Shown here: positions 6,477 to 25,988 of the stretch, piece by piece
Layout: the number at the start of each line of letters is the position of its first letter
Numbering within the stretch: the stretch's first letter is position 1
Source: a virus
Length of the DNA stretch: 25,988 nucleotides
IMG/VR virus record: IMGVR_UViG_3300014501_000063
Span: 1-25,988 of that record
Strand: one strand, 5' to 3'
Position numbers and translations under genes: made by a program
The notes under the pieces: model-generated
Database searches by the model: none
What the model was told of the DNA's origin: nothing
Seen by the model: the letters and a program-made list of their open reading frames with translations, nothing else

Positions 6477-6899
6477 ATGGGGCGCAACCGCAAAATCACG
6501 GAGATCAACGAGCGGTCGGGGGCTTACAGGAAAAATCCGTCACGCGGCCGGGCGCGCTTCGGCGAGCCGGCGCGCGAGGAGCTCGTCGGCGACCCGCCAG
6601 CGAAGTGGCTCTCGGGCGCGGCCTTGACATCGGGCGGTGAGAGCGCGGAGAAATGTGCGATCTGGCATGAGCTTGCCGGCCACGCGGTTCGGCCGCTCAG
6701 GATCAATCACCGCATCGCGCTTGAGATGCTATGCGGCCTGGTCTACCGCATGCGCCACGGCTACGCGAAATGCGCGGAGCTCGCTCTGATCGTCCAAGTC
6801 AGCGGCAAGCTCGGCCTCGGAGACCTGGTCAACCAGTCCCGCCACGCAACCGGGAAAGCGCCGGTTCGGAGCGCGGATTGGGACGAGTATGTCGGCTAA
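6477..6899 (+). CDS. Terminase small subunit
   Basis: 140 residues, ATG 6477, directly followed by (and overlapping by 11 bp) the large terminase gene. The N-terminus is basic (MGRNRKITEINERSGAYRKN) and reads like the start of P27-family small terminases, with GRARFGEPAREE next. The rest is helical: a central WHELAGHAVRPLRINHRIALEML and a C-terminal LALIVQVSGKLGLGDLVNQ. The small subunit recognises the phage DNA end region and stimulates the large subunit. Identification relies on gene order, size and the N-terminal pattern. No single diagnostic residue is available. Confidence 0.75.
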   Translation: MGRNRKITEINERSGAYRKNPSRGRARFGEPAREELVGDPPAKWLSGAALTSGGESAEKCAIWHELAGHAVRPLRINHRIALEMLCGLVYRMRHGYAKCAELALIVQVSGKLGLGDLVNQSRHATGKAPVRSADWDEYVG

Positions 6900-8646
6900 G
6901 AAGAAGCTCTCAGCCGACAAACGCAAGCAGTTTCGGGCCTACGCCGCTGCCGCCAACGAGTACTGCCGCGCTGTTGTCGCCGGCGAGATTCGCGCCTGTA
7001 AGTGGGTGCGTCTGGCTTGTGCGCGCCATCTCGCGGATCTCGCGCGAAGCCGCACGGAGGAATTCAAGTACAAGTTCGATCCGATCCGCGCCGGCAAGGC
7101 CTGCGGCTTCATCGAGCGCTTTCCGCACGTCAAGGGGCATTGGGCCCAGAACGCGGAGCGGATCCGGCTCGGGCTCTGGCAGTGTTTTATTGTCTGTTCG
7201 ATCTTCGGCTGGGTCGACAAGGTTTCCGGCCTGCGCCGGTTTCGCCAGGCTGTCCTTTTGGTGCCACGGAAGAACGGCAAGACGGTTCTCGCCGCCGGCA
7301 TCGGGCTCTACATGTTCGTCGGCGACGGCGAGCCAGGCGCGGAAGTTTATACCGGCGCCGGCAATAAGAAGCAGGCGAAAGAGGTTTTCTCGCCCGCATC
7401 GAAGATGGCCAAGCGCGCCGAGGGTTTCAAGGATTGGTTTGGCATCGAGATCAATCTCGAATCGATGCAGCTGCCCGATGAGGGCTCGAAGTTTGAGATC
7501 GTGATCGGCACGCCTGGCGACGGACCGTCGCCGCATTGTTTCCTTCATGACGAGTTTCATGAGCAGCCCACCTGGGCGCAGTACGACACGGCAAGGACGG
7601 GCATGGGCGCGCGGCGGCAGCCGCTGCAGCTCGTCATCTCGACTGCTGGGATCGACATCGAGGGGCCCTGCTTCACGCTCCAGGAGGATCTGAAGAAGGT
7701 TCTTGACGGCACCTTTATTAACGATCGGCTGTTTGGCGTGGTTTACACCGTCGACGATCCGGACCGCCTGGTCGAGACGCCTGGCGGCCAGCTGCCCTAC
7801 TGGGCGACCATCGAAGCCGCGCAGGAGGTAAACCCGAATTACGGGGTCAGTGTCCTCGCCGACTACATCGAGGCGGAACTCAAGGAGGCAATTCAGCGGC
7901 CAGCGCGCCAGAACGCTTACAAGTGCAAGAACCTCAACATCTGGACCAACGCGCGCAACCCGTGGATGAACATGATTGCCTGGAAGGCCTGCGCGGATCA
8001 TTCTCTCTCGATGGAGGAGTTCCTGCAGTATCGCTGCTTCCAGGGCCTTGACCTGGGCGCGCGGATCGACCTCACCTCGCGCTGCCGCCTGTTTGTGAAG
8101 TGGCAGGGCGACCAGCGGCACTATTACGCGTTTGGCACGCATTACGTTCCCCGCGATCGCGCTAACGATGGCGAGCATCAGCATTACGAGCGCTGGATCA
8201 AAGAACATCGCATCGTCGACCACGAAGGCGCGGAAATTCAACTGGCTTTTGTGCAGAAAGAAATCGAAGCGGAGCTGCCGCAGTTCTCAGACGTGGTTCT
8301 GGCCTTCGACCAACACCAGGCCATGCAGATGCAGCAAGAGTTAAGGCTAAGGCTCGGCGACGCTAAAGTGCTCGATGTGCCTCAGACCTGGAAGTACCTC
8401 GATCCCGCCATGAAGGAGATCGAGGCCGCCGTTCTTTCCGGCCGCTTTCACTACGACGGCGATCCGGTACTGACCTGGGCTGTCGGCAACGTATTCGTTA
8501 AGCCGGACGCCAACGAGAACATTTTCCCGCGCAAGGAAGATCGACCCAACATCAAGATCGATCCAGCTAGCGCGCTCTTTAACGCCATGTACCTGGCGCT
8601 GTCTGCGGGCCCGCAGCAGAGCCCCAACGAAATGTTCTTCGTGTAG
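6889..8646 (+). CDS. Terminase large subunit (packaging ATPase and nuclease)
   Basis: 585 residues, ATG 6889. The ATPase half has a Walker A-type VPRKNGKT at 125-132, characteristic of the Terminase_1/HK97-like group, and a Walker B-type CFLHDE at 217-222. The C-terminal nuclease half has Asp388 in QGLDLGA, Asp474 in VLAFDQ and Asp558 in IKIDPA, which fit the acidic metal-binding triad of the RNase H-like fold. The protein docks on the portal, cuts concatemeric DNA and pumps it into the prohead using ATP. Full length for the family. The stop overlaps the portal gene's ribosome-binding site (AGGAGA, 8645-8650). Confidence 0.95.
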   Translation: MSAKKKLSADKRKQFRAYAAAANEYCRAVVAGEIRACKWVRLACARHLADLARSRTEEFKYKFDPIRAGKACGFIERFPHVKGHWAQNAERIRLGLWQCFIVCSIFGWVDKVSGLRRFRQAVLLVPRKNGKTVLAAGIGLYMFVGDGEPGAEVYTGAGNKKQAKEVFSPASKMAKRAEGFKDWFGIEINLESMQLPDEGSKFEIVIGTPGDGPSPHCFLHDEFHEQPTWAQYDTARTGMGARRQPLQLVISTAGIDIEGPCFTLQEDLKKVLDGTFINDRLFGVVYTVDDPDRLVETPGGQLPYWATIEAAQEVNPNYGVSVLADYIEAELKEAIQRPARQNAYKCKNLNIWTNARNPWMNMIAWKACADHSLSMEEFLQYRCFQGLDLGARIDLTSRCRLFVKWQGDQRHYYAFGTHYVPRDRANDGEHQHYERWIKEHRIVDHEGAEIQLAFVQKEIEAELPQFSDVVLAFDQHQAMQMQQELRLRLGDAKVLDVPQTWKYLDPAMKEIEAAVLSGRFHYDGDPVLTWAVGNVFVKPDANENIFPRKEDRPNIKIDPASALFNAMYLALSAGPQQSPNEMFFV

Positions 8647-8653
8647 GAGATCC

Positions 8654-10390
8654 ATGGGAAAGCTTGCCGAACTGTTCGGCCGCGGGCGCGGATCGGCGCC
8701 GAATGAGGCGCGAACCAGCCTGGAAAACCCGTCAGTTCCGCTCTCTCTGGCGTCGTTTCTGGGGTGGTTGGGAGCCGGCGAGCCGACAGCATCGGGCGAA
8801 ATCGTCAACGTCCAGACCGCTCTTCAGGTCACGGACTTCTACATCGGAGTGCGCTACCTCGCGCAGGCGATCTCTTCGCTGCCTCTGGTCATCTACGAGG
8901 TCAAGGCGGATGGCAGTAAAGAGCGCGTGGACCACGATCTGACCTGGCTGATTGCCACCGAGCCGAATGACGAGATGTCGGCGCCCTCGTTCTGGGAATC
9001 GCAGATCGGCGCCATGGCCTGCGCCGGTAACAGCTATGCGGAGATTATCCGCGACTTCGGCGGCCGGTGTCGCGGCCTGTATCCGCTTTCGCCTGGCGTC
9101 ACTGAGCCGCGCCGCAACAATAAGACTGGGGTTCTTGAGTATGTGACCAGGGCTGGCATGGAGTCCGGCCGCGAGCGCGTCATTCAAAAAGAGGACATGA
9201 TTCACTGCCCTCTGTTCTCCTTCGACGGGCTCAAGGGATTTTCGCCGGTTACTATGGCCCGCCAGACGTTGGGCCTGGCTCGGGCGTCGGAAAAATTCGG
9301 CGCTCGATTCTTCGGCAACGGCGCGGTGCCGCTGCAGATGTTGACTCCCGAGGCGGGGAATATCGTCACCCCGACGCAGGCCGCCTCGATCAAGGAATCT
9401 TTCGAGCGCAGTTTTGGCGGCGAGAATGCGCTGCGCACGGCCGTCCTTACCGGAGCCTGGAAGCTGCAGGCGATGGGGCTCTCTCCGGAAGACTGCCAGT
9501 TCATTCTTACGCAGCAATTCACGCGCTCGCGGATTGCGGGGCTGCTTGGACTTCCGCCTCACGTTCTGGGCGACACCACGCGGCTCAGCAATAATAACCA
9601 CGAGAACCAGACGCTGCAGCTGGTCACTGACACCTTCCGGCCGTACTGTAATCGCATTGAGAAGGAGTTGCTGCGCAAGCTGATGCCGCGCACGGGCCCC
9701 AAGGCCTACAGCTACATCGTCGAGTTCGATTTCACGGAGCGGCAGCGCGGCGATTTCGTTACCACACAGCAGGGCTTCGCACTCGGCCGGCAGTGGGGCT
9801 GGCTAAGCGCCAACGACGTGCGCCGCGCCCTGGGCATGAATCCCGGCGGTGCGGAGCTTGACATCTTTCTTTCGCCACTCAATATGCTCGACGCGAAACA
9901 GGTTCTCAATCCGCCCGAGGATCCACCGAAGGGCACAGGCGATCCGCTTGACGATGGCCAGGGCGCGGATCCGGCCTCTGACCCGGAGCCTGATGCGAAC
10001 GAGCGCACTGTTCTGGCTCGCTACGTTGCGCGCTACGGCAAACAGTTCGTCGACGCCTTCCACCGCGCAGGTTCCGACCTCGCAAAGCTCGCCGCCGAGC
10101 TTGGCCCGGTGGTTATATCGATTGCCGACGGCGCCATCCACGCGGATCCGTTCGGCGTCCGGGATGACGGCGCCGCGGCCGCGATCTCTGGCGAAGTGGT
10201 TGGCGCAGTGATTCGCAGGCTCAAGAAGCGCGGCGCGGCCTGGGTCTTTTCGGAGCAGCTCTGCCGCGATGAATTCCGGCGCGTAATTCGCGCCGTCCAC
10301 ATCCAATCCGCGCGCCAGAATGCGGTCACGATCGCGGTGCTCGAGCTCGCCGAGCCAGAAACCGAAGAGGAGGAAGTGCATGTCGATTGA
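8654..10390 (+). CDS. Portal protein, HK97-like, with C-terminal extension
   Basis: 578 residues, ATG preceded by AGGAGA. The first about 415 residues follow the HK97-type portal family: VTDFYIGVRYLAQAISSLPL near the N-terminus, FWESQIGAMACAGNSYAEI, FTRSRIAGLLGLPPHVLGD and the NPGGAELDIFLSPLNML end of the core. HK97 portals are about 420 residues. Here a Pro/Asp-rich linker (about 417-455) leads to an extra helical domain (about 456-578, YVARYGKQFVDAFHRAG ... QSARQNAVTIAVLELAEPE). The portal forms the dodecameric ring at one capsid vertex for DNA passage and tail attachment. The extension may contact the head interior or protease. Its end overlaps the protease gene by 11 bp. Confidence 0.93.
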   Translation: MGKLAELFGRGRGSAPNEARTSLENPSVPLSLASFLGWLGAGEPTASGEIVNVQTALQVTDFYIGVRYLAQAISSLPLVIYEVKADGSKERVDHDLTWLIATEPNDEMSAPSFWESQIGAMACAGNSYAEIIRDFGGRCRGLYPLSPGVTEPRRNNKTGVLEYVTRAGMESGRERVIQKEDMIHCPLFSFDGLKGFSPVTMARQTLGLARASEKFGARFFGNGAVPLQMLTPEAGNIVTPTQAASIKESFERSFGGENALRTAVLTGAWKLQAMGLSPEDCQFILTQQFTRSRIAGLLGLPPHVLGDTTRLSNNNHENQTLQLVTDTFRPYCNRIEKELLRKLMPRTGPKAYSYIVEFDFTERQRGDFVTTQQGFALGRQWGWLSANDVRRALGMNPGGAELDIFLSPLNMLDAKQVLNPPEDPPKGTGDPLDDGQGADPASDPEPDANERTVLARYVARYGKQFVDAFHRAGSDLAKLAAELGPVVISIADGAIHADPFGVRDDGAAAAISGEVVGAVIRRLKKRGAAWVFSEQLCRDEFRRVIRAVHIQSARQNAVTIAVLELAEPETEEEEVHVD

Positions 10391-11144
10391 ACGCCGTTTT
10401 ATCAAGGGTGCCAGCATCCAGGCCAGGTCCGGAGAAAAGCCGGGCATCGCCGGGATCGGCGTGGTTTACGACCAGGTCTATGACAATGGATGGTTCCTGG
10501 AGATCGTCAAGCCCGGAGCCTGCGCCCGCGTCCTCAGTGAGAATCAGGATGTGCGCTGCCTGTTTAATCACGACACGAATCAGCTTCTCGGGCGCACCAA
10601 GTCTGGCACGCTCCGGCTGCAGGATTCGGCTGCTGGATTCAGCTTCGACTGCGATACGGATCCTAACACCGGCCCGGGCCGCGATGTGTCCGCCATGATC
10701 AATCGCGGCGACATCGACGGCTGCAGCTTCAGCTTCAATGTCCGCAAAGACACCTGGTCCGATGAGTACGATGCGGCCGGCCATTACGTCTCGACGACGC
10801 GCTCGATCGACGACATCGACATGTTCGACATCGGCCCGGTTACTTTCCCGGCCTACACGCAAACTAGCGTGGGCGCGCGCAGCGCCTGGCCTGAGGGCAT
10901 TTCTGCCGAGCGCCGCTGCCACATTGAAGAGATGCGCCAGGCGTCCGCCATCGCGCCGCCGGGTGCGCCTCGCGCCGACAGCAAGTGTTTGTGCGATTGC
11001 GACGCATGCATGAATGGTGACTGCGAGAACTGCGGTCCTGACGTATGCGACGACACGGTCAATTGCATGTGTGCTGAGGCTGATCGCGCTCTCGCGCTCC
11101 GTGCCCGCGCTTACGTCAAGCCTGGGCCTCGGCTCGTCGCCTAG
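10380..11144 (+). CDS. Prohead protease (HK97 gp4-like, S78) with Cys-rich tail
   Basis: 254 residues, starting at ATG 10380 within the end of the portal gene. An in-frame reading from 10320 is not preferred. The core carries the family's His in FNHD (His64), Ser in GCSFSF (Ser116) and the strand MFDIGPVTFPAY, whose Asp150 stands where family members often have Glu. This protease cleaves the delta domain from the capsid protein in the prohead and then itself. After about residue 195 there is a tail with nine cysteines in residues 203-231 (pattern CLCDCDAC ... CENC ... C ... CMC), followed by a basic end. The tail might bind metal or form a scaffold. Similar acidic Cys-rich tails occur on some phage prohead proteases, but their role is not established. 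Confidence 0.9.
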   Translation: MSIERRFIKGASIQARSGEKPGIAGIGVVYDQVYDNGWFLEIVKPGACARVLSENQDVRCLFNHDTNQLLGRTKSGTLRLQDSAAGFSFDCDTDPNTGPGRDVSAMINRGDIDGCSFSFNVRKDTWSDEYDAAGHYVSTTRSIDDIDMFDIGPVTFPAYTQTSVGARSAWPEGISAERRCHIEEMRQASAIAPPGAPRADSKCLCDCDACMNGDCENCGPDVCDDTVNCMCAEADRALALRARAYVKPGPRLVA

Positions 11145-11281: not shown

Positions 11282-11301
11282 GTTTTGCGAAGGAGCAAAA
11301 C
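11282..11301 (+). promoter_or_regulatory. Hairpin presenting the capsid gene's Shine-Dalgarno in its loop
   Basis: GTTTTGC (11282-11288) pairs perfectly with GCAAAAC (11295-11301), leaving a six-base loop GAAGGA, so most of the AAGGAG ribosome site (11290-11295) is in the loop and the ATG follows 1 base after the stem. This would hold the site in a fixed exposed position and could tune the high expression needed for the capsid protein. The rest of the 158-bp gap (11145-11302) shows an AT palindrome (AATTTAAATT, near 11149-11158) and no gene. Confidence 0.55.
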
Positions 11302-11302
11302 C

Positions 11303-12637
11303 ATGACCAAGCAGGAATTTCAACTGAAGCGCGGCCAGGTCGGTACCGAGGCCAGCCGCCTGGCGCAGCAAGCCAGCGAGCTCGTCTCGAAGTCCGGCCG
11401 CACCAAGGACGAAACCGCACGCGCCAAGGAGCTCCGCTCCCAGGCTACCGCGATGTTTGACGAAGCGGACGACATCTCCGAGCAGATCATTGCGCTCGAA
11501 CGTGGCGAGAAGTTTGAATCCGAACAGCGCGCCATCGTGCCCGCGCCCCGCCCCAAGCCGGGCCAGGAAGAGTCTGGCGTTCGCGCTGCCGGCGACAAGC
11601 TTCTCACCAACGCTGTCGAGGTCTATCTTCGCTTCGGCGACAGCGGCGTTGTCAGCATGTGTTCGCCGGAAGAGCGCGCAGCCTTTGCCCGCGGCCGCCG
11701 CGACACGCCCGCACGGGCCATCGTGATCGGCGGCGAGCGCCGCGACATCACTGAGGCCGGCACTGGCTCCTACATCGTGCCTCAGGAGTTCTATCCCGAA
11801 CTGGTCTCAGGCCAGAAGTTCGTCGGCCAGCTCACCGGCAGCGTCCGCAAAAAGGTCACCGCCGGCAATGGCGCGCCCATGAAGATCGGGCTCGAGAACG
11901 ACACTGCCAACACGATCGTGGTGATGGCCGAGAATACCGACGTCACCGAAACGGATCCCACGTTGAGCGGCTTCGTGGGATCGACCGACACGCTGGCCAC
12001 GCTGATTCTGATCTCGAAGCAGGAACTCGCCGACTCGGCCTTCCCGCTGGCGCAGATCTTCCGCGATCGGCTCACCAAGCGCTACGCCCGCGGCCTTGAG
12101 AACTTCATCGCCAACGGCGACGGCGCGAATATCGCGAGCATCCTGACCGCGCCGTTTGGTGGTTCAGAGGGTTCTACCTTTGGGACGGACACCTATTACA
12201 TCACGGCCACCAACGCGGGGCCTGGCTACCTGGACTTCAACATAGCTGAGGGTTTGCTCGATCCCATCTACGAAGAGAATGCGGCCTGGTACATGCATAA
12301 GTCGACACGCGTCTACGTGGCCGGCCTGCTCGATACCTTGAACCGCCCGCTCTTCCAGCCCAACCCGCAGAGCGGCATGCTGGATCAGATCCTCGGTTAT
12401 CCCATCAAGCTCTCGGCGTACATGCCGATCGGCACCACGGCCAGCGCGCAGGGCGTTCTTTTCGGCGACGCCGAAGAGGGCTACCTGCTCCGCACCGACG
12501 GCGACCTGGTTGTGCAGCGGCTCGACGAGCGCTTCGCCACCAAGCTGATGGTCGGCTTCCTGGCCTACACCCGCTCCGGCGGCTATGCCACCAACCCTGG
12601 CACAAACCCGCTGGTCGGCCTGCAGACGCACAGCTAA
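11303..12637 (+). CDS. Major capsid protein, HK97 fold
   Basis: 444 residues from ATG 11303 with a strong AAGGAG. An in-frame TTG at 11285 would include the Shine-Dalgarno and is rejected. The N-terminal about 80 residues are a charged coiled coil (QLKRGQVGTEASRLAQQA, RAKELRSQATAMFDEADD), the expected delta/scaffold domain removed by the protease. Then come the HK97-fold segments: ITEAGTGSYIVPQEFYPELV for the N-arm region, LATLILISKQELADSAFPLA, and FIANGDGANIASIL for the spine and P-domain. The end has the A-domain-like VVQRLDERFATKLMVGFLAYTRSGG. It assembles into the icosahedral shell. Length fits an uncleaved precursor of the family. Confidence 0.93.
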   Translation: MTKQEFQLKRGQVGTEASRLAQQASELVSKSGRTKDETARAKELRSQATAMFDEADDISEQIIALERGEKFESEQRAIVPAPRPKPGQEESGVRAAGDKLLTNAVEVYLRFGDSGVVSMCSPEERAAFARGRRDTPARAIVIGGERRDITEAGTGSYIVPQEFYPELVSGQKFVGQLTGSVRKKVTAGNGAPMKIGLENDTANTIVVMAENTDVTETDPTLSGFVGSTDTLATLILISKQELADSAFPLAQIFRDRLTKRYARGLENFIANGDGANIASILTAPFGGSEGSTFGTDTYYITATNAGPGYLDFNIAEGLLDPIYEENAAWYMHKSTRVYVAGLLDTLNRPLFQPNPQSGMLDQILGYPIKLSAYMPIGTTASAQGVLFGDAEEGYLLRTDGDLVVQRLDERFATKLMVGFLAYTRSGGYATNPGTNPLVGLQTHS

Positions 12638-13438: not shown

Positions 13439-14338
13439 ATGGCGCTCAATATCACCCGGATCTCCGACGCCATCGTCGAGCCCGTCTCGCTCGCCCTGGC
13501 GCATGCGCAGTGCCGCCTCGACCCCACCTTCATCGCCGACGACGTGCTGTTGACGCTCTATATCTCGTCCGCGCGCCAGACTGCGGAGAAGATCATGCAG
13601 CGCGCCATCTTCAATCAGACCTGGCAGCGCACGCTCGATAGCTTTCCTCTGTCTGCCAGTCTCGATTACGCGGCGTCGCCGGCGGACCGCTGGAATCTTC
13701 CCGTCTACGGCGCCCAGGTCAATCGCCTGGTCATCGATCTGCCCATGGGCCGCGCGCTGGCTGTCAATTCGATCACCTATGAGGCGTGCAACGGCGAGCT
13801 ATACACGCTTTCGCCATCGTCCTACGCTGCCGACTTCACCGGCATCCCCTGCCGCCTCACGCCGTCTCAGTTGTCTGAGGGCGCGAGCGTGTGGCCGTTT
13901 CAGGGTGGCTATCTGCCTGGCTCCGTCAAGATTCAGTGGCAGGCGGGAAGTTTCGTCGCGAGCTGCGTAGATAGCCTCGTCGTGCCGTCCACTGGCGCCT
14001 ACGCGGTGACGCTGTCGGCTTCGGCCGCGATCGCGGCGGGGACAACTGCGCTGACCAGCTCGGTGACTCTCGTCGACGCGGATGGAAACCCGGTAGTCTT
14101 CACGATTGCGGGCGGCGTTCTCACGGTTGCTTCAACCTATGCAGGCCAGACACTCAAGGCGAGTTATTACACCGGCAACTGCCCTGCAGACGTCCAGCAC
14201 GCCATTCTGTGGCTTGTCGCGCACTATTACCGCAACGCGGAAGCTGCCACCGATCTCAAGCTCGCAGATCTGCCGCAAGGCGTCCAGGCTAAGCTCACGC
14301 CGCACATCGTCGAATGGAGCGACTACCGGCCATGCTGA
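13439..14338 (+). CDS. Head-tail connector, phiE125 gp8-like, with inserted domain
   Basis: 299 residues. The N-terminal part (SLALAHAQCRLDPT, DDVLLTLYISSARQTAEKIMQRAIFNQTW) is the characteristic helical core of the phiE125 gp8 / HK97 gp6-type connector that forms a ring under the portal. The closing helix PADVQHAILWLVAHYYRNAE also fits. These two parts are normally close together. Here about 75 residues (about 172-246) of beta-type, Ser/Thr/Ala/Val-rich sequence (AYAVTLSASAAIAAGTTA, VTLVDADGNPVVFTIAGG) are inserted between AGSF and NCPAD, making the protein about 100 residues longer than usual (about 200). The insert could decorate the neck. The end overlaps the next ATG by 7 bp. Confidence 0.85.
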   Translation: MALNITRISDAIVEPVSLALAHAQCRLDPTFIADDVLLTLYISSARQTAEKIMQRAIFNQTWQRTLDSFPLSASLDYAASPADRWNLPVYGAQVNRLVIDLPMGRALAVNSITYEACNGELYTLSPSSYAADFTGIPCRLTPSQLSEGASVWPFQGGYLPGSVKIQWQAGSFVASCVDSLVVPSTGAYAVTLSASAAIAAGTTALTSSVTLVDADGNPVVFTIAGGVLTVASTYAGQTLKASYYTGNCPADVQHAILWLVAHYYRNAEAATDLKLADLPQGVQAKLTPHIVEWSDYRPC

Positions 14339-17166: not shown

Positions 17167-17655
17167 ATGCCGATGAGCCTCAAGACGAAAGGTTTTCCTG
17201 AGACTCAGGCCGGGTTCGCGCGGGTGCGGGAGCTCGTGAGGACGGATGCAACCAGGAGCGCCGTCCGCGTCGGCGGGGCTGTCATGGTCGAGGAAATGAA
17301 GGAGGGGGCCCCCGTATTAGACGAAAAGAACGCGGGGAGTAACGCGCTGGAACCGAACGCGCTAAAGACGGGCATTGGCCTACGCGTTGAGCCGGTGCGT
17401 GACGGCCTGGTTATTGCGTTTATCGGCCCAAAGCGCGGAACGCGCCGCGTCGCGCACCTGGTGGAGTACGGCCACCGTTTGATCAAGGGCGGCAAATCAT
17501 ATGTCACGGCAGCGGGAGCGCAGGGGCCGGGGAAGCTGATCGGCGAAGTGCCCGCGCATCCGTTTTTGCGGCCCGCGTTTGAAACCAGCTGGCAAAGGTC
17601 GATTGAGGCCTTCGCGGCCGAACTGAAAGTGCAACTCGCGAGGTTTTCGAGCTAA
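17167..17655 (+). CDS. HK97 gp10-like tail completion protein
   Basis: 162 residues, ATG 17167 with GGAG (a second ATG at 17173 is possible). The pattern RVGGAVMVEEMKEGAPVLDEKN, then GPKRGTRRVAHLVEYGHRLIKGGKSY, then PAHPFLRPAFETSWQRSIEAFAAELK is characteristic of the HK97 gp10 family (helix, G-x(2)-RVAHLVEYG-H, and H-PFLRPAF ... the C-terminal helix). It normally sits between the head-closure protein and the DUF3168 tail terminator. Here it is about 2.5 kb further down, directly in front of the tape measure. Expected role: minor tail/neck component. Its stop overlaps the tape-measure ATG (TAATG). Confidence 0.85.
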   Translation: MPMSLKTKGFPETQAGFARVRELVRTDATRSAVRVGGAVMVEEMKEGAPVLDEKNAGSNALEPNALKTGIGLRVEPVRDGLVIAFIGPKRGTRRVAHLVEYGHRLIKGGKSYVTAAGAQGPGKLIGEVPAHPFLRPAFETSWQRSIEAFAAELKVQLARFSS

Positions 17656-19907
17656 TGGGTACATCGATTGGCACCGTAACCGCGATCCTCGAAGCGAACA
17701 CGAAAACTTTCGACACGTCGCTGCAGAGCAGCACAAACCAACTCAGGGCCGCGCAGTTCGCGGCCGAGAAGGCCGGCACCGCAATTTCAGTGGCGGGCGA
17801 GAAGATTGACCGCACGGCGCTGCTGCAGGAGCGCGCAGCAGACCGCGCCCGCGCGGCCTGGCAGCGGGAGCTGCTGCAGCAGGAGAAAGCGACGCTGGCC
17901 GAAGCTGCCACGGCGCGATCTAAAGAGATCGCCGCGCTCAAGACGGACATTCTTACGCGGGCGACGGAGAATGAGGCGAAAGCGCAGGCCAGGCTAAACC
18001 TGCTCCTTGGTACGGGGCGCACGGCCCTTCAGGGAGTGCAGACGATCGGGGTTGGCATTGGCTTCGGCTTGGCTGTCGCGGGGCTCAAGAGGATGATCGA
18101 GTCCACGATTGAGGCTGGCGTGGAACTCGGCCGGCTGCACGAGCAGACTGGGGTCTCGATGGAGGACCTTTCGGTGCTCAAGTTCGCGGCTGCGGAGACG
18201 GGCACTAGCTTTGAGACTTTGACGCGCGGCTTCCGCCGTCTGGCTGTCACCGTCTCCGACGCGGAGCGCGGCGTGAAAGTGGCAAAGCTTGGCTTTCAAG
18301 ACCTTGGAATTTCAACTGAAGACCTCAAGGCCAAGGGAAACGATATGTATGGCGTCCTGCAATTGATCGCTGACAAGTTCGAGCAGATGCCCGACGGGAT
18401 CGGGAAGAGCGACGCGGCCGCGAAGATCTTTGGAGTGCGTATGGGGTCGGAGATGATCCCGGTGTTGAACCAGGGCGCGGCGGCGCTGGAAAACTTCAAA
18501 TCGAAGGCTCCGATCATTACCGACCATGATCTCGAACAGTTAGAAAAGGCGCATAAGGCGACGGTAAATCTCAGTGCTGCATGGCAAAAGTTCTCGATGA
18601 ACCTGACTGTGGCTGTGGCGCCGGCCATGAGCACGTTTTTTAACTGGCTGGCGACTGGTATTGAGAAGAATGAAGCCGAGCTGGCTCACCTTGGGGAATC
18701 GTGGAAGGCTCTCGGCCGGACGGTTCTCCTTGCGGGGCAGGGCCTGTTCGGAGCGGCGTATCTTTCCGCGCAGGGAATTATGCCGCCTGTCGCTGCCGCC
18801 CCAGCGGCCTCCTCCGCGCCTAAAGCTGGCGGTGTCGGCCCTGGCGGTGGGTCGGTGAGGGGAATCGAGGGCGCGCTAGCTACTGCTGATTTCACAAACT
18901 ATTGGTCTGGTTATTTCAGGGCCGCGGCCGCGGCGGGGGCGCCGAGTAAGCTTCCGGCCGGCGCGTGGAACTGGGCCGCGCAGTACGGCGCCCCGGCCCC
19001 GGGCGCGGCTGCTATGCCCGGCTACAACCCCATGGCTCTGGGCCTCAACTTTGGCGCTTCCGCAAAGGTCATCGGTCCGAGCGCCGGGCCGTTCGATGCA
19101 TTCCTGAAAACCTTGAAGGATACGGCGGATGAATTCACGAACTTGAATCAGGTCCTCAGCAGCTTCACTATCGGAACCTTGAATAAGTTCAACGAAACGC
19201 TGATGAAGGTGCTTTCGACGCCGGACAGCATGCTGCGCGGGCAGCATCCCTGGCGCCAGCTCGGCGCGAGCACCGCTCAGAGCGCCGGCAGCGCTGCCCT
19301 CAAGTACGGCGAGGGCATGGCCATGTCAGAGCTCGGCAAGATTCCCGGCATTGGCAAGCTCTTCAAGAGCACGCATAAGCCGACGGGCTCGCAATCTGAT
19401 CCGCTTTGGGTCAAGCTGGTTGACGGCGGCGCGGGTAGTACGTCGAGCTCGATGGGGGGGGGGGACTCCATTAGTAGCAGTTTTTTGGGCGGCGGCGGCA
19501 GCGGCGGCGCGGGAAGCGCGATGGGGGCTGGCGGAGCCGGCGCGATCGGCGCCCTCTTCGGCGGCGGCGCGAGCGAAGGGTCTGGCGCGACGGCTTCGAT
19601 GGGGAAAGGTGCGGCGGAAGGCTTTGCTGAAGGTGGCATGATCCCCTCGAATATGCCGTCACTCGTCGGCGAGAAAGGCCCGGAGCTCTTCATGCCGAGG
19701 ACCTCGGGGCGCATCATACCCAACGGCTCGTTTGGCGGCGGTCAAACCGTCAACAACTACTTCGATAACAGGGGAAATTCGGATCCGGCTGCTTCGGAGG
19801 CGGCGATGCATCGCGTCGTGCGATCTTACCTGCCCCACATTAGCGGCATGGCGACGAACGCCATCCGCGACAGTAACCGCCGCCGGCCTCTCTCGAAGGC
19901 TCGCTGA
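17655..19907 (+). CDS. Tape measure protein
   Basis: 750 residues, ATG 17655. A coiled coil (about 40-115) is followed by a hydrophobic segment (about 127-147, GVQTIGVGIGFGLAVAGL), and a region FETLTRGFRRLAV ... KSDAAAKIFGVRMGSEMIPVLNQGA, seen widely in phage tape measures. A low-complexity Gly/Ser/Ala part follows (about 590-665), and then the typical C-terminus FAEGGMIPSNMPSLVGEKGP ELFMPRTSGRIIPNG. The protein sets tail length and is ejected with DNA. At roughly 1.5 angstrom per residue it would suggest a tail near 110 nm (rule of thumb). An 11-base poly-G tract (19454-19464) lies in the Gly linker. Confidence 0.93.
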   Translation: MGTSIGTVTAILEANTKTFDTSLQSSTNQLRAAQFAAEKAGTAISVAGEKIDRTALLQERAADRARAAWQRELLQQEKATLAEAATARSKEIAALKTDILTRATENEAKAQARLNLLLGTGRTALQGVQTIGVGIGFGLAVAGLKRMIESTIEAGVELGRLHEQTGVSMEDLSVLKFAAAETGTSFETLTRGFRRLAVTVSDAERGVKVAKLGFQDLGISTEDLKAKGNDMYGVLQLIADKFEQMPDGIGKSDAAAKIFGVRMGSEMIPVLNQGAAALENFKSKAPIITDHDLEQLEKAHKATVNLSAAWQKFSMNLTVAVAPAMSTFFNWLATGIEKNEAELAHLGESWKALGRTVLLAGQGLFGAAYLSAQGIMPPVAAAPAASSAPKAGGVGPGGGSVRGIEGALATADFTNYWSGYFRAAAAAGAPSKLPAGAWNWAAQYGAPAPGAAAMPGYNPMALGLNFGASAKVIGPSAGPFDAFLKTLKDTADEFTNLNQVLSSFTIGTLNKFNETLMKVLSTPDSMLRGQHPWRQLGASTAQSAGSAALKYGEGMAMSELGKIPGIGKLFKSTHKPTGSQSDPLWVKLVDGGAGSTSSSMGGGDSISSSFLGGGGSGGAGSAMGAGGAGAIGALFGGGASEGSGATASMGKGAAEGFAEGGMIPSNMPSLVGEKGPELFMPRTSGRIIPNGSFGGGQTVNNYFDNRGNSDPAASEAAMHRVVRSYLPHISGMATNAIRDSNRRRPLSKAR
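19454..19464 (+). repeat. Poly-G tract in the tape-measure linker
   Basis: Eleven consecutive G residues in the reading frame of the tape measure gene, in a Gly-rich linker. Homopolymers of this length slip easily in replication and sequencing, and a one-base change would cut off the last about 150 residues, including the conserved C-terminus. Confidence 0.8.
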
Positions 19908-20119: not shown

Positions 20120-20767
20120 TTGACTACGATCACCATCGGCAGCAATACCTACAACCTGTGCGCGATGCCCTCGTCTCCTGGTCCGGCCGAGATTGAGCTG
20201 GGCATGAGCGACTCGGTTGCTGTCGTCGAGTCGCCATTTACGAAGGTCCAGCAGGTGCAGCCCTGGCCAGGCGCCGATTTCTGGGATGCGACAGTCACGC
20301 TGCCGCCTCTTAGTAAGGCACAGGCTTGGGCGTGGGAGGGTTTCCTTGCCGAATTGAGGGGAAGGGCCAACGTCTTCCAGCTTGGCGATCCACGGGCTGT
20401 TGGCGGCCTGCTGGGCTCCGGCCTGGGAACGCCGGTGGCCAACACTTACGGCGGGAATAACCTGCCCGGCACAACCTCGCTGGTTACCGCAGGATGGGCG
20501 CCGAGCACATTCAGGCTGTTATTGCCCGGCGACCAGTTTCAGATTAACTACCGGCTGCACCGGGTCTGCGAGCAGGTGAATTCCGATTCCGGCGGCAATG
20601 CCACTTTGGCGATCTGGCCGTCGCTGCGCGAGACGCCATCGACGGGGAACGGCCTTTATTTCGCTTCGCCACGAGGCTTATTTCGCCTGGCTTCGAACCG
20701 GCGCGCGATTCACTCGAGCCCGCAACGGCTCACGACGCTCAGCTTTCAGTGTATTGAGGTGCGGTAG
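20120..20767 (+). CDS. Distal tail-region structural protein, putative
   Basis: 215 residues, TTG start at 20120. No good ATG is available before the conserved-looking N-terminus (MTTITIGSNTYNLC). Beta-type pattern with PFTKVQQVQPWPGADFWDATVTLPPLSKAQAWAWEGFLAELRGRANVFQLGDP, then a Gly-rich loop region and LPGDQFQINYRLHRVCEQV. Alternating beta segments with an amphipathic helix and this position, right after the tape measure, fit a distal tail or baseplate hub component. The exact family is not recognised, so the role is inferred from position. The stop overlaps the next GTG (TAGTG). Confidence 0.7.
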   Translation: MTTITIGSNTYNLCAMPSSPGPAEIELGMSDSVAVVESPFTKVQQVQPWPGADFWDATVTLPPLSKAQAWAWEGFLAELRGRANVFQLGDPRAVGGLLGSGLGTPVANTYGGNNLPGTTSLVTAGWAPSTFRLLLPGDQFQINYRLHRVCEQVNSDSGGNATLAIWPSLRETPSTGNGLYFASPRGLFRLASNRRAIHSSPQRLTTLSFQCIEVR

Positions 20768-21018
20768 TGCGGGGATCAGGGACCAGGGACCGGGAGCCGG
20801 AAGAGATTGCGTGGCTGCTCGATGACGGCGTGATGTGTATCGGCGTCCTGTGCGGGCGGCTGAGTTTCGTCGCGTATACCGATTCCCGCGCGCTGCGCTT
20901 CGCGCGCCGCTCGGACGCGGAAAACATGATCCAGTTAATCGCCGGCGCGATCGGGCTGCCCCTGACGGCAGAGAATCTCGCGCCGGTCGAGCATTCATGG
21001 AGCTACGTTGCCGCGTAA
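20767..21018 (+). CDS. Small tail-region protein, unknown
   Basis: 83 residues, GTG at 20767 overlapping the previous stop by one base (TAGTG). After a charged start (GTRDREPEEIAW) it reads a compact alpha/beta pattern: LDDGVMCIGVLCGRLSFVAYTDSRALRFARRSDAENMIQLIAGAIGL. No catalytic residues or TM. It shares its end with the start of the next tail gene (11-bp overlap). The layout and GC3 suggest a genuine gene, perhaps a small accessory of the baseplate. The function is unknown. Confidence 0.6.
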   Translation: MRGSGTRDREPEEIAWLLDDGVMCIGVLCGRLSFVAYTDSRALRFARRSDAENMIQLIAGAIGLPLTAENLAPVEHSWSYVAA

Positions 21019-21559
21019 TCTGCCCAGCCCGATGATTACGGCCGTCAAGTCAAACGACGTGTCGCCGTGCGTGCTGGTCGATCTCACGCTCGCGACGGGC
21101 GTCCAGCATATCTGGTCGGGCATTGGCTCGCTGGTTTATAGCGGCAACACCTATCTCGGCGTGGGCTCGCTCGGCCAGATCGGCGACGTAACCGAGGGCA
21201 GCGATGTAAAGGCCGATGGCACCACGATCACGCTTTCCGGCATCGATCCGGTGCTTCTGAATGACTGCCTGCTTGAGATCCAGCTGGGCGCGCCGGTCAC
21301 CGTCTGGTTTGCGGTGTTTCAGAGCGGCGCGGTTCTTGGCGCCGCGTATCCGCTCTTTGTGGGCACGGTCGACCAGCCGGTGGTTCCGATTTCTCCGGAC
21401 ACGATCGCGATCACGCTCAAGCTTGAAACCCGCATGACGAATCTGCAGCGCGCTTCGAATCGCCGCTACACGGCGAGCGATCAGAACTATAACTACCCCA
21501 GCGATTCCGGCTTTAACTGGGTTGAAACCCTCAGCGATATTGCCCTGATCTGGGGCTAA
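21008..21559 (+). CDS. Baseplate/tail protein, DUF2163-like
   Basis: 183 residues. TTG 21008 is preferred to ATG 21032 because the reading RNLPSPMITAVKSNDVSPCVLVDLTLATGVQHIWSG fits the usual start of this family, in which a short helix leads to the strand [x]P-x-LVxL-x-F-x-(T)-x-x-WSG. Further segments YLGVGSLGQIGDVTEGSDVKADGTTITLSGIDP and a final FNWVETLSDIALIWG also fit the tail proteins of siphoviruses and gene transfer agents that sit near the tail tip. It probably forms part of the tail-tip hub. It is followed 14 bp later by the fibre gene's ATG. Confidence 0.7.
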   Translation: MPRNLPSPMITAVKSNDVSPCVLVDLTLATGVQHIWSGIGSLVYSGNTYLGVGSLGQIGDVTEGSDVKADGTTITLSGIDPVLLNDCLLEIQLGAPVTVWFAVFQSGAVLGAAYPLFVGTVDQPVVPISPDTIAITLKLETRMTNLQRASNRRYTASDQNYNYPSDSGFNWVETLSDIALIWG

Positions 21560-21572
21560 CAAGGAGCAAATC

Positions 21573-24452
21573 ATGCGTTTTCGCATCGCCGCCTTCACGG
21601 CGCTCGCGCTCTTGTGCGCGCTTTTTGCGCCCACGGCAGTCGCGCAATATACCACCGTCTCGGCGTCTTACACCGGAGGCACCGGCCACCTGGTCGCGAA
21701 CGGGACGGTTTACTGGCAGCTCGTCACGTCGTCGCGGATCGATACCGCCGGTGGCCAGCCTTTGGGCGTTCCCGTCACGGCGACGGTGACCAGCGGCGCA
21801 TTTTCGCTCTCGGTCGTAGATGTTTCGCTCAGCGACCCTGTGTATCCCTGCTACGCCGTGACGATCATCGATAACGTTACGGGCAGGGCGCTCCTGGGCG
21901 CGGGCCTGGCTTCAGACGGCGTCCATGTGAACCTGGGCGGCGCGTATGGCTGCGTGCAGCCCACGGGGAGTACCTGGAGTTTTGACAGCTTCATTCCTGC
22001 GACGCCGCCGACGGCGATGGTGGTTGCGGGGCCGACGGGGCCCGCGGGGCCCGCGGGACCAGCGGGACCGACCGGGCCGGCCGGGAGCGGTGGCTGCAGC
22101 GGCGGGGCGATTAGCGGGGGTTGCACTGGCGCAACTACGGCCCCAGGGGCCTTGTCGAACATCTTCGGCAACCCCACTGCAGGTGTGTATATCCAGAGCT
22201 GCTCGAGCACGTCGGCATGCGCGCCCCTCGCGTTCTCGGTGACTGCGACCGGCAGCTCGGGGCCTTCAACGTTTTCAGGTGGGGTCCTAAACATTCCGCA
22301 GTATTCCGGCGGCGGATCGTCGATCCCTACCGCCTACACCTGCTCGGGAACCGCGGGCACTGACACTGCTGCCATTAATGGCTACCTATCTACGCCGGGC
22401 ACCTATCTTTATACCTTTGGGAACTGCGCGACGAACAATCAGATCGTCCTCTATTCGAATGACACCTGGAACTTTGCGGGCCAGACTCTCACCAGCTATT
22501 TGCCGAATACCCTGGGCTCGATCGGCACCAACTACGCCTCGATCACGAATGAAGCCGTGGTCAGCCCCACCACGCACGCCTATACGTGCGCCCTGACGGC
22601 GTCGTCGCAGAGCGCCACCTGCTCGACGGCGAGCTTCACGAATGCAGATGTCGAGCAGAGCTTCCGTTGCACCGCGGCACTCGGCGGCGGCGTGGATCTC
22701 GAGACTACGATTGCCAAGGCTTCGGGCACGAGTCTCGACCTTTCAGACTTCACCGGCCCCGGCATCACGGCCGGCAACTTCTCCTGCACGGAGACAATCC
22801 GAGATCATGACATCCACGTGATCGCAGGCACGGTCTCGATGACGGCCGGAACATTCACTTCAGGCGCGCCGCAGGAAATTGCAATCGGCCATGCCAACCG
22901 CGTGACGGTGGATGGCGGCAACTGGCTCGACCCGGATGGCACATCGAACTGGCACACGTTCTTTTATGACGTGGACGAGATGCTGGTCGAGAATATGAAA
23001 CTGTTCTCGTTCTCTGGCTACGGCCAGGACGGCATCGACTTTGAAGGGCCGTGGCGCAACATTGCGGTGCGCGACATCACGTGCGATACCAGCGACGACT
23101 GCGTTGCGCTCAAGGATGGCGAGATCTGGCCGTCGCCGATCGGCATTCCCCGCAACACAAACGGGGCCGGCGTAGGCGCTTCCGTCTACAACGTGCAGGG
23201 TACCAGCGGCTCGCAGGGTGTCGTGGTCTATGCCTTTTGCGTGAATGCGAGCGGCACCTGCATCGGGTCGCCGATGAACAATATCAACATCGACACGGTG
23301 TTCGCGTCGACCATCAGTACGAGTGCCGGGCAGCAAGAGGGCTTCAATCTCCCCGTGAGCTTGAATGTCGGCGCAGCTTATGCCTCAGACCTCGGGACAT
23401 CGGCGCTCATCGATCAGATCTACATCTCACACGTCTACAACCAGTCGAACTTTAACTGGGGCCAGCAGGTCAATGTGGGCAGCGCGAGCATCGCCGCAAA
23501 CGAGTATTACGGCGCGATCAGCATCTCAGACGTGGGCCCGGACAATACGACAAACGCCGGCACGCAAGCCGCGATCATGCTACATGCGCCGTCGAATACG
23601 AGCTATAGGCTCGACGTTAAATCGCTGGCAATCCGCGACGCAGAGTACACGGCAACGCAGCCGCTGCTTGCCATTGTCGGCACGAACACCACGATCACAA
23701 GCTTTGTGGGTGACAACCCAAATTCTGCCGAGTATAACTTCGGCGGCGGGACGATCGCGAGCGAGTATATTGCCGGAGATACAACCAACTTCGCAATCAA
23801 CTCGACGGCGCTGAGTGGGGGCACTGCCGGGTACCTCGTCTACGACAAACTCATTACCGGGAATCATTTTGTTGGGGAGGAAGTTCCATCAACGAGCCTT
23901 CTACAGGATTTCAGCAACGCCGGTGCGGGTGTTGGCTCCTCTCTGCTCTGCGGGGCAACGACCTCGGGCAGTTGCACTGCGTGGGCCGCGGGCTGGCCTC
24001 ACATCTTTGTCGGCACGACGCAGGTCACTTCATGTACGTCGGGCTATATGCTTTATGACAACGCTGGGACTGTGGGATGCGAGGTCGCGCCATCTGCGCC
24101 GCACCCTATAAGTTTCCCCTTCGGTCAGGCTGGGGGATCGCCTATATCTCCGGGCGTGCTCGGCTATTACACCGTCCCTTTTAACTGCGTGATCAATGGC
24201 TGGTCGATTGAAGCCGACGCAGGCACTGACACAGTGAAATTCCTGAAAGTGGCGTCGGGCATCGCAGTCCCCACGCTCGGATCGAACTCGATCTCGACCA
24301 GTGGCGTTTCTCTCTCGACTGGCACGGTCATCCAGAGTGCAACCATGTCAGACTTTACGACGACAGCGGTTTCTCTCGGTGACATCATAGCGGCGGACCT
24401 GATTACAACCTCTGGGACCGGCTTCATCAACGCTCAGCTGGTGTGCCAATGA
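21573..24452 (+). CDS. Exported collagen-plus-beta-helix tail fibre/depolymerase
   Basis: 959 residues, ATG with AAGGAG at 21561-21566. Order of parts: a Sec-type signal peptide (1-24: basic MRFR, hydrophobic AAFTALALLCALFA, cut at AVA before Gln25), a beta-type domain (about 26-140) with the motif GGAYGCVQP, a collagen-like stretch (153-171, GPTGPAGPAGPAGPTGPAG), a Gly/Ser linker, then a right-handed beta-helix (about 255-700). The helix carries GH28-type signatures: DGID at 486-489 and SDDCVALK at 507-514 supply the Asp residues expected of a polygalacturonase-like site. The family's GHG motif is not seen. A C-terminal domain follows (about 700-959). Position and fold indicate a host-binding fibre or polysaccharide-degrading spike. 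A signal peptide is not expected on a virion protein, so export before assembly, or secretion as a free enzyme, is possible. Confidence 0.8.
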   Translation: MRFRIAAFTALALLCALFAPTAVAQYTTVSASYTGGTGHLVANGTVYWQLVTSSRIDTAGGQPLGVPVTATVTSGAFSLSVVDVSLSDPVYPCYAVTIIDNVTGRALLGAGLASDGVHVNLGGAYGCVQPTGSTWSFDSFIPATPPTAMVVAGPTGPAGPAGPAGPTGPAGSGGCSGGAISGGCTGATTAPGALSNIFGNPTAGVYIQSCSSTSACAPLAFSVTATGSSGPSTFSGGVLNIPQYSGGGSSIPTAYTCSGTAGTDTAAINGYLSTPGTYLYTFGNCATNNQIVLYSNDTWNFAGQTLTSYLPNTLGSIGTNYASITNEAVVSPTTHAYTCALTASSQSATCSTASFTNADVEQSFRCTAALGGGVDLETTIAKASGTSLDLSDFTGPGITAGNFSCTETIRDHDIHVIAGTVSMTAGTFTSGAPQEIAIGHANRVTVDGGNWLDPDGTSNWHTFFYDVDEMLVENMKLFSFSGYGQDGIDFEGPWRNIAVRDITCDTSDDCVALKDGEIWPSPIGIPRNTNGAGVGASVYNVQGTSGSQGVVVYAFCVNASGTCIGSPMNNINIDTVFASTISTSAGQQEGFNLPVSLNVGAAYASDLGTSALIDQIYISHVYNQSNFNWGQQVNVGSASIAANEYYGAISISDVGPDNTTNAGTQAAIMLHAPSNTSYRLDVKSLAIRDAEYTATQPLLAIVGTNTTITSFVGDNPNSAEYNFGGGTIASEYIAGDTTNFAINSTALSGGTAGYLVYDKLITGNHFVGEEVPSTSLLQDFSNAGAGVGSSLLCGATTSGSCTAWAAGWPHIFVGTTQVTSCTSGYMLYDNAGTVGCEVAPSAPHPISFPFGQAGGSPISPGVLGYYTVPFNCVINGWSIEADAGTDTVKFLKVASGIAVPTLGSNSISTSGVSLSTGTVIQSATMSDFTTTAVSLGDIIAADLITTSGTGFINAQLVCQ

Positions 24453-25255
24453 AAAAACTGCTTGTCTTTGCCGCGCTGGTTTTCCTGCCGGGGTTAGCGC
24501 GGGCGCAATACTACCTCGACCTCGATGCCCTGACCTCGCCCAGCACTACGAATACCTCGTCGCCGGGGTGGAACATCGACACGGTTCCCGCGAATACGGG
24601 CGGCGCGAACTCGCCGGCCTCGGCTTCGCAGGCGACCGGCGTCTCGTCGCCATGTTCCGGGGCGCCCAGCGGCACATCGATGTCCATGTCGGTAACCACA
24701 AGCGCGACGTCTACTCAGACCAACGCGCTGTTCTGGCTTTGGCTCACAGGCAATGATAGCGCCACTACGTTCGTTTCTAACCGTTGGATATGCGTCACAA
24801 ACATCGGCGCCGCCAACAATATTGAGATGGATTCCGCGCAGTACAATCTGACCCTTGGCCGCGAATTTATGTTCGGCTGGCAGTGCAATCTTGGTGGCTA
24901 CTGGCAGATCGATAACCTGGCTCACGGTTGGGAAAACACGACAGTCGCGTGCTCCTGGCCGACCGGCTGGAACAACGTCATTACGGTGGGTCACCGAACG
25001 CCGGGCGACACGAGTTGCGGCGGCGTTGCTTGCAATAACTACGACAAGTTGATTCTGAATGGTGCGACCTACAGCATCAACATGACGCTGCCGTCGGAAA
25101 CGCTTTTGTATAGCACGTCGGCACTTATCGACCAATTTCAGATAGATATCAGCGCAACATCAGGCACCGCTCAAACTGTTTCTTACAACGTGGATGATGT
25201 GAACTTCAACGCGTACATTCCGGCACCGCCCGCGCATTCGGCGGGGATGTTTTGA
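24449..25255 (+). CDS. Signal-peptide protein with beta-sandwich-like domain, fibre region
   Basis: 268 residues. ATG 24449 is in an ATGA overlap with the fibre stop. A GTG at 24443 would add only two residues. The N-terminus MKKLLVFAALVFLPGLARA is a classic Sec signal, with cleavage at ARA before Gln20. The mature part is Ser/Thr/Asn-rich at first (SPSTTNTSSPGWNIDTVPAN) and then a beta-type domain with Trp and Cys (ALFWLWLTGNDSATTFVSNRW, FMFGWQCNLGGYW, SWPTGWNNVITVGHRTPGDTSCG, YNVDDVNFNAYIP) suggesting a lectin- or concanavalin-like fold. No catalytic motif is recognised. Could be an adhesin displayed on the host surface or a virion-associated sugar binder. The gene is coupled to the fibre gene. 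Confidence 0.65.
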   Translation: MKKLLVFAALVFLPGLARAQYYLDLDALTSPSTTNTSSPGWNIDTVPANTGGANSPASASQATGVSSPCSGAPSGTSMSMSVTTSATSTQTNALFWLWLTGNDSATTFVSNRWICVTNIGAANNIEMDSAQYNLTLGREFMFGWQCNLGGYWQIDNLAHGWENTTVACSWPTGWNNVITVGHRTPGDTSCGGVACNNYDKLILNGATYSINMTLPSETLLYSTSALIDQFQIDISATSGTAQTVSYNVDDVNFNAYIPAPPAHSAGMF

Positions 25256-25309
25256 ATCCTAATGAGTGGCACGCCGCCAACCTGCACCTGTAACTAACCG
25301 GAGCGCTCG

Positions 25310-25885
25310 ATGAAAAAGCTTCTTATGGTTGCGGCCATCCTGGCCGCGTCGGTGCCGATCTGCGCGCAGACGGTGACCGTTAAAGCGTCGTATCTCTACG
25401 ACGGCCTGAACCCCGCGTACGGCACGTTGACGCTCGCTCCGGTCACTCCTACCGGCCAGCCGGCCAGCTACCATCGACCCGGCGGCGGCCAGGCGTCGAT
25501 CACACCGCTCACGGTCGGCGTCCAGAATGGCGCGTTCACTTTGGCGGGCGTGCCTGATACGGCGTTGGCGAGTCCCGCGAATATCTGCTTTGAGCTCATC
25601 CTGAGCACGCAGAACGGGTCGCAGGTTCTCGGACCTGGCTATGGATGCTTGCAGCCGAGCGCCACCGGGCAAAGCTCCTGGTGTAGCACGACCGGCGGCG
25701 TCACGACCTGCAATCTCGATAACTACCTGCCTAACATCGCGCCGCTGGCGCTGAATGGCTTTGTGCAGTCGATCAACGGCTTTCCTGGCGCGTGGACCAT
25801 GGGCACCGGGTTCACTTGCAACACGGCGACGCTCACGTGCACGGCGACTGGCGGCGGCTCAAACATTTGGGACTTATATACATGA
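25310..25885 (+). CDS. Signal-peptide protein paralogous to the fibre N-terminus
   Basis: 191 residues, ATG with GGAG at 25301-25304. Signal peptide MKKLLMVAAILAASVPICA with Gln20 as probable first mature residue. The domain after it resembles residues 26-140 of the large fibre: the strand TVKASYLYDGLNPAYGTLTL, then NGAFTLAGVPDTALASPANICFELIL, GYGCLQPS and DNYLP can be lined up with YTTVSASYTGG, SGAFSLSVVDVSLSDPVYPC, AYGCVQP and DSFIP. The C-terminal part (SINGFPGAWTMGTGFTCN) is different and has paired Cys. It may be a smaller exported partner of the fibre. No enzymatic motif is seen. Confidence 0.7.
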   Translation: MKKLLMVAAILAASVPICAQTVTVKASYLYDGLNPAYGTLTLAPVTPTGQPASYHRPGGGQASITPLTVGVQNGAFTLAGVPDTALASPANICFELILSTQNGSQVLGPGYGCLQPSATGQSSWCSTTGGVTTCNLDNYLPNIAPLALNGFVQSINGFPGAWTMGTGFTCNTATLTCTATGGGSNIWDLYT

Positions 25886-25900: not shown

Positions 25901-25988
25901 ATGAGTACCCGTGATAGTCCGATAGAACTCGAAATGCCCCCCACGCTCTTTGAAGCCTATCCAGAGCGGCGGAAGCTGAATGCCAGCC
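25901..25988 (+). CDS. Unknown protein, 3' end outside window
   Basis: ATG 25901 preceded by an excellent CGGAGGAAA (25892-25899), running open to the window end with 29 visible residues: a charged N-terminus (MSTRDSPIELEMPPTLFEAY) then PERRKLNAS. It has no signal peptide, unlike the three genes before it. No function can be inferred from this fragment. Confidence 0.6.
   Translation, partial: MSTRDSPIELEMPPTLFEAYPERRKLNAS

Follow-up and report, generated by a model that had tools for sequence, protein, structure and literature searches.

Soil phages of Acidobacteria appear to send tail fibres out of the cell via the secretion pathway of their host, with disulphide folding taking place outside. 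We were led to this reading by a window of viral DNA, 25,988 bases long and recorded as linear in IMG/VR, near the end of which three consecutive genes each encode a predicted Sec/signal-peptidase-I-type signal peptide, called the leader in the following. As the best explanation of their sequences, genes 1 and 3 of this trio would belong to a family of tail fibres found in siphophages of Acidobacteriota, with gene 2 as an exported companion. With a probability of roughly 0.6, the family proteins would be true tail fibres: Sec would carry them out of the cytoplasm, the leader would be cut off and disulphide bonds formed, and only then, most likely when the cell lyses, would they be added to virions. 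By standard teaching, tailed phages assemble in the cytoplasm, where known tail fibres are also produced and folded. We found no precedent for exported tail fibres of tailed phages in the literature that we searched; phiCbK was checked as a precedent and proved irrelevant.

The gene content of the window, on one strand throughout, is that of an HK97-type siphophage. Large terminase (6889-8646), portal (8654-10390), prohead protease (10320-11144), major capsid protein (11285-12637), head-tail adaptor (13439-14338) and tail completion (17167-17655) genes precede those for the tape measure protein (17655..19907, + strand, phrog_8462), the distal tail protein Dit (20120..20767, + strand, phrog_1302, 4e-33) and a baseplate hub/tail protein (21008..21559, + strand, phrog_2048, 1e-40). 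Directly downstream of the last three follows the trio. A fourth gene starts behind GGAGG at 25901-25988 (+ strand; MSTRDSPIELEMPP...); it has no leader and is cut by the contig end. A gene of the superinfection-immunity family PF14373 (16792-17103, + strand, 7.5e-15; phrog_1039) lies in the head-tail module just 5' of the tail completion gene. An Rfam scan of the window gave no match.

Gene 1 (21573..24452, + strand) encodes a predicted exported tail-fibre protein, a precursor of 959 residues with 22 cysteines in its mature part. It starts at ATG 21573 with AAGGAG upstream, and its predicted leader of 24 residues (21573..21644, + strand), MRFRIAAFTALALLCALFAPTAVA|Q, ends in AVA|Q. An anchor-like beta-sandwich domain, the N-domain, follows at 21648..22022 (+ strand), then a short collagen-like GPAGPAGPAGP stretch at 22026..22085 (+ strand). 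Gene 2 (24449..25255, + strand; leader 24449-24505) encodes a predicted exported protein with six cysteines that lacks the N-domain. Its listed start is GTG 24443, but translation probably begins at ATG 24449, in an ATGA overlap with the gene 1 stop; the leader then reads MKKLLVFAALVFLPGLARA|Q and ends in ARA|Q. Gene 3 (25310..25885, + strand; leader 25310-25366) starts at ATG 25310 with CGGAG upstream and encodes a short protein, also predicted to be exported, whose leader MKKLLMVAAILAASVPICA|Q ends in ICA|Q. Its mature part consists of the N-domain (25370..25753, + strand), with two cysteine pairs (CF...YGC and WC...TC), and another 43 residues. The N-domain is common to genes 1 and 3 (BLAST 1e-7).

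An earlier note on this DNA had described three genes at this place with a basic start, a hydrophobic core and the cuts AVA|Q, ARA|Q and ICA|Q, and our rule-based assessment agrees with it. By a fixed rule of our own, which asks for a positive n-region, an uncharged core of nine residues, small residues at -3 and -1 and a cut at residue 14-37, all three N-termini carry the features of Sec/signal peptidase I substrates. Among other same-strand genes of at least 100 residues in the window and 24 related phage loci, the rule was passed by only 7/217 (3%), and three of these seven were gene 2 and two genes adjacent to another leader-bearing fibre. Since only about 3% of other genes pass, three leader genes in a row are not due to chance. 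The trio has no twin-arginine motif, and we hence rejected Tat export; likewise, lipoproteins were rejected as there is no lipobox at the cut.

Exposure of Gln after the cut is the pattern described as the Q-rule for Bacteroidetes. The same pattern at -3/-1 and Gln at +1 is also the commonest in two Acidobacteriota genomes (L057-L076), where Gln occupies +1 in 18/31 predicted secreted proteins under the full rule and in 11/34 without a bonus for Gln, the overall figure being 4%. As the host secretome is thus also rich in +1 Gln, the leaders of the phages seem fitted to the secretion pathway of the host.

Searches of viral contigs and Acidobacteriota genomes yielded 62 usable members of the N-domain family in phages and prophages of Acidobacteriota. 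One named genome that matches the family is an Acidobacteria MAG, and the family occurs in 33/298 genomes of that MAG's order; by tblastn, the gene 1 N-domain had no match among INPHARED phages. A leader is present in 47 of the 62 members and ends at, or a few residues from, the domain start (AQ|YTTV...). In the other 15, Met and a few further residues lead directly into the same YTTV edge, so that the whole leader segment is missing. Leaderless and leader-bearing genes share the same position: the gene order is tape measure, leader-bearing fibre, Dit, hub, NlpC and J in L102 and L123, and tape measure, leaderless fibre, Dit, hub, NlpC and J in L104 and L107, with other members placed after J. 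The family thus lies beside tape measure, Dit, hub and J genes, as tail fibres do. Leader state needs about two changes on a tree built from the first 30 domains, compared with 8.5 when labels are shuffled. The leader is hence a conserved character, and the leaderless members represent few independent cases.

That the trio might be an artefact, namely a chimeric contig or host surface genes beside a phage fragment, seemed worth asking because the window is a linear fragment that ends just after it. However, many phage contigs and prophages, independent of each other, carry the same genes within the same tail module, which refutes misassembled host genes for the family as a whole and makes such an origin hardly credible.

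Several lines of evidence point to a family of tail fibres. The C-terminal parts of leaderless members match tail-fibre PHROGs (phrog_4201, 3e-49; phrog_11419, 6e-51). The leader-bearing L042 gene also matches tail-fibre PHROGs, and the leader-bearing L043 gene matches tail-fibre or appendage families; in gene 1 itself, such PHROG matches fall on the collagen-like stretch only. The earlier note had asked for structure prediction of the mature parts, and for the N-domain this returned a beta-sandwich (AlphaFold2 pLDDT 87), whose best PDB match is the tail fibre 8KEC of cyanophage A-1(L) at a Foldseek probability of 1.00, though with an E-value of only 0.011. Tail-fibre and minor tail proteins are among its viral matches. 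Both fibres of A-1(L) are attached to the baseplate by their N-terminal parts (PMC10966104); our match to 8KEC comes without an aligned residue range. The N-domains, moreover, are kept while the C-terminal parts vary, with pairwise matches in 409/435 and only 14/406 comparisons, respectively, as is typical of tail fibres. Fibres and tailspikes of tailed phages, such as the A-1(L) fibre (PDB 8KEC; PMC10966104), resemble our family in N-domain fold, hypervariable C-terminus, collagen-like stretches and tail-module position; the Sec leader and cysteine pairs of the leader-bearing members set it apart from them.

The C-terminal part of gene 1 has no Pfam match, and an AlphaFold2 model computed without alignment was discarded at pLDDT 33. 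A stretch at 22944..23123 (+ strand; GQDGIDF...DDCVALK) weakly resembles pectate lyases and GH28 enzymes (phmmer against 5olp, E = 0.031), the GH28-like motifs having been read by eye, and a depolymerase would thus be a weak reading of the sequence.

Working leaders would bring the mature proteins into an oxidising place for folding, where paired cysteines are to be expected. In our first set, 20/20 leader-bearing domains contained 2, 4 or 6 cysteines; leaderless domains had between none and three, mostly one. We used the prophages as a second set. Over both sets, the cysteine count was even in 46/47 leader-bearing versus 5/15 leaderless domains (Fisher p 2.8e-7, a value inflated by kinship). 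The sole leader-bearing domain with an odd count is that of L131, where a cysteine directly behind the cut lies beyond the profile match. Among 29 aligned domains, cysteines at columns 57 and 89 occurred together in seven and in neither position in 22, and those at columns 181 and 192 together in 14 and in neither in 15, never singly; the pair 125/162 was single in four rows, all of them leaderless. The C-terminal parts, largely unrelated to each other, had even counts in 42/47 leader-bearing versus 6/15 leaderless members, and parity there is independent of the N-domain tree. Six leader genes without the N-domain at these loci, gene 2 and five others, encode 6, 6, 4, 10, 8 and 4 cysteines. 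By comparison, 30 structural control genes without leader were divided into 16 even and 14 odd counts, with 0.80 cysteines per 100 residues versus 1.53 in the exported fibres' C-terminal parts. When cysteine pairs were set against leader state in independent-contrast tests, these had no power, as the tree holds too few changes, and we do not rely on a Mann-Whitney test of cysteine counts in the first set, which ignores kinship. The pairing as such is that of Sec substrates in an oxidising compartment. Being independent of the leaders themselves, it points to working leaders and to folding in such a compartment, and export of the trio and its family is thus well supported by sequence.

A hydrophobic N-terminus by itself is no proof of export, and the N-termini might instead be uncleaved tips inside the virion or membrane anchors. 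We regard this as very improbable given the cut motif at the domain edge, Gln at +1 as in secreted host proteins, leaderless members that lack the whole segment and the parity of the cysteines.

The earlier note had also called for a comparison with other phage contigs, and this showed that runs of leader genes recur. The closest relative, L005, has five in a row, the gene 1 homologue and four after it. This homologue keeps its leader, MRFRIHAIVALLLLCALFAPAAVA|Q, which over 72 nucleotides differs from that of the window at six synonymous and eight non-synonymous positions. Gene 3 has a homologue of 282 residues in L005 (74% in the N-domain). The C-terminal domain of gene 1, its last 117 residues (24099..24449, + strand), shares 76% identity with the end of another leader gene of L005, which argues that C-terminal domains are swapped among exported genes. 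The viral-contig search found no relatives of gene 2 or of the C-terminal part of gene 1. Gene 2 has a homologue in L045:6764-7858 (27%, 7e-8) with a leader-like N-terminus, which lies between two leader-bearing fibres, so that the order fibre, companion, fibre is the same as in the trio. In L010, there is a leader gene on either side of the fibre, and two leader-bearing fibres stand in tandem in each of L105, L111 and L116. L118 carries at 9271-10980 a leader-bearing fibre copy split over two frames beside an intact one, possibly a decaying or phase-variable duplicate. The adjacent leader genes L005:7001-7849 and L005:7846-8763 have different N-termini, and their C-terminal domains seem similar by eye (SDVTNQTASQ... 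and SDVTSQSASQ...). Just upstream of the tape measure gene, L005:513-860 and L002:3095-3577 are short lipoprotein-like genes (..LPLAAC|D and ..SVAGC|Q) and may be surface or exclusion proteins.

Leaders and paired cysteines speak for export but would equally suit proteins that never join a virion, i.e., surface or slime adhesins, receptor-masking proteins or secreted polysaccharide or ester hydrolases recruited from tail fibres. Gene 2 lacks the anchor domain, and this leaves a place for it in the virion unsupported. Moreover, an exported L005 fibre (L005:4089-6974) has a GDSL lipase/esterase-like domain behind the N-domain (PF13472, 5e-6, below the curated cut-off), and a companion in L045 has a chitobiase C-terminal domain. 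Nixviridae phages of Porphyromonas gingivalis likewise carry several genes with Sec leaders that expose Gln after cleavage; in the accessible part of their description, these secreted genes are of unknown function, are read as modifiers of the host envelope and are not tied to tail fibres or disulphide pairs (PMC10367356). Against a role off the virion, the syntenic leaderless homologues are ordinary tail fibres, and the exported gene thus fills the fibre slot in leader-bearing phages; a kept N-domain with varying C-termini is, furthermore, what one expects of a virion anchor. We hence consider such proteins an unlikely alternative. The earlier note had envisaged export as part of a surface-modification system in the phage late region. 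Its export part is upheld by the cysteine pairing and by relatives that lack a leader but occupy the same gene position. A separate surface-modification system, however, is not needed, since the family of genes 1 and 3 is one of tail fibres, in which the N-domain is conserved and the C-termini are swapped.

Exported fibres might also serve twice, some acting on surface or slime before lysis while the rest ends up on virions. This fits all sequence evidence, and enzymatic C-termini would presumably help release in slime-rich soil bacteria; nothing, however, separates it from export followed by attachment to virions, and we judge such dual use improbable.

We therefore return to exported virion fibres, for which partial parallels exist. 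The precursor of pIII, the receptor-binding virion protein of filamentous phages, carries a Sec signal sequence (Sec/YidC; PMC8310372). Filamentous phages, though, assemble in the inner membrane without lysis, and the HK97-type siphophage studied here shares no common fold or gene order with them. In phage lambda, the gene of Lom, a beta-barrel outer membrane protein, lies between those for spike and fibre (PMC12309495). Like other surface morons of this kind, it is a leader-bearing gene of the tail region, whereas here the leader sits on the fibre itself.

For the fibres we infer the following course. Precursors would be threaded through the Sec translocon of the host, and signal peptidase I would cut exactly at the start of the N-domain, exposing Gln. 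In the periplasm, the fibres might then be oxidised and folded, with N-domain and C-terminal receptor-binding or enzymatic parts gaining disulphide bonds. The finished fibres would dock by their N-domain onto tails assembled in the cytoplasm, most likely at cell lysis, when both compartments mix. Of the options raised in the earlier note, attachment to virions after export would hence fit best.

We see a somewhat better than even chance that tailed phages in a widespread group infecting Acidobacteriota finish their virions outside the cytoplasm, with Sec-secreted fibres that are disulphide-bonded in the periplasm and added at or after lysis, the leader having been gained or lost within a tail-fibre family that keeps its place and anchor domain. 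The presence of exported, disulphide-bonded and cytoplasmic, cysteine-poor versions in the same gene position would make this family a natural experiment on where fibres are made and how they are joined, and addition of fibres to tails after lysis becomes directly testable. A leader together with an even cysteine count may serve as a simple export screen for phage genomes. Unusual secreted genes in the late regions of soil phages would thereby find an explanation.
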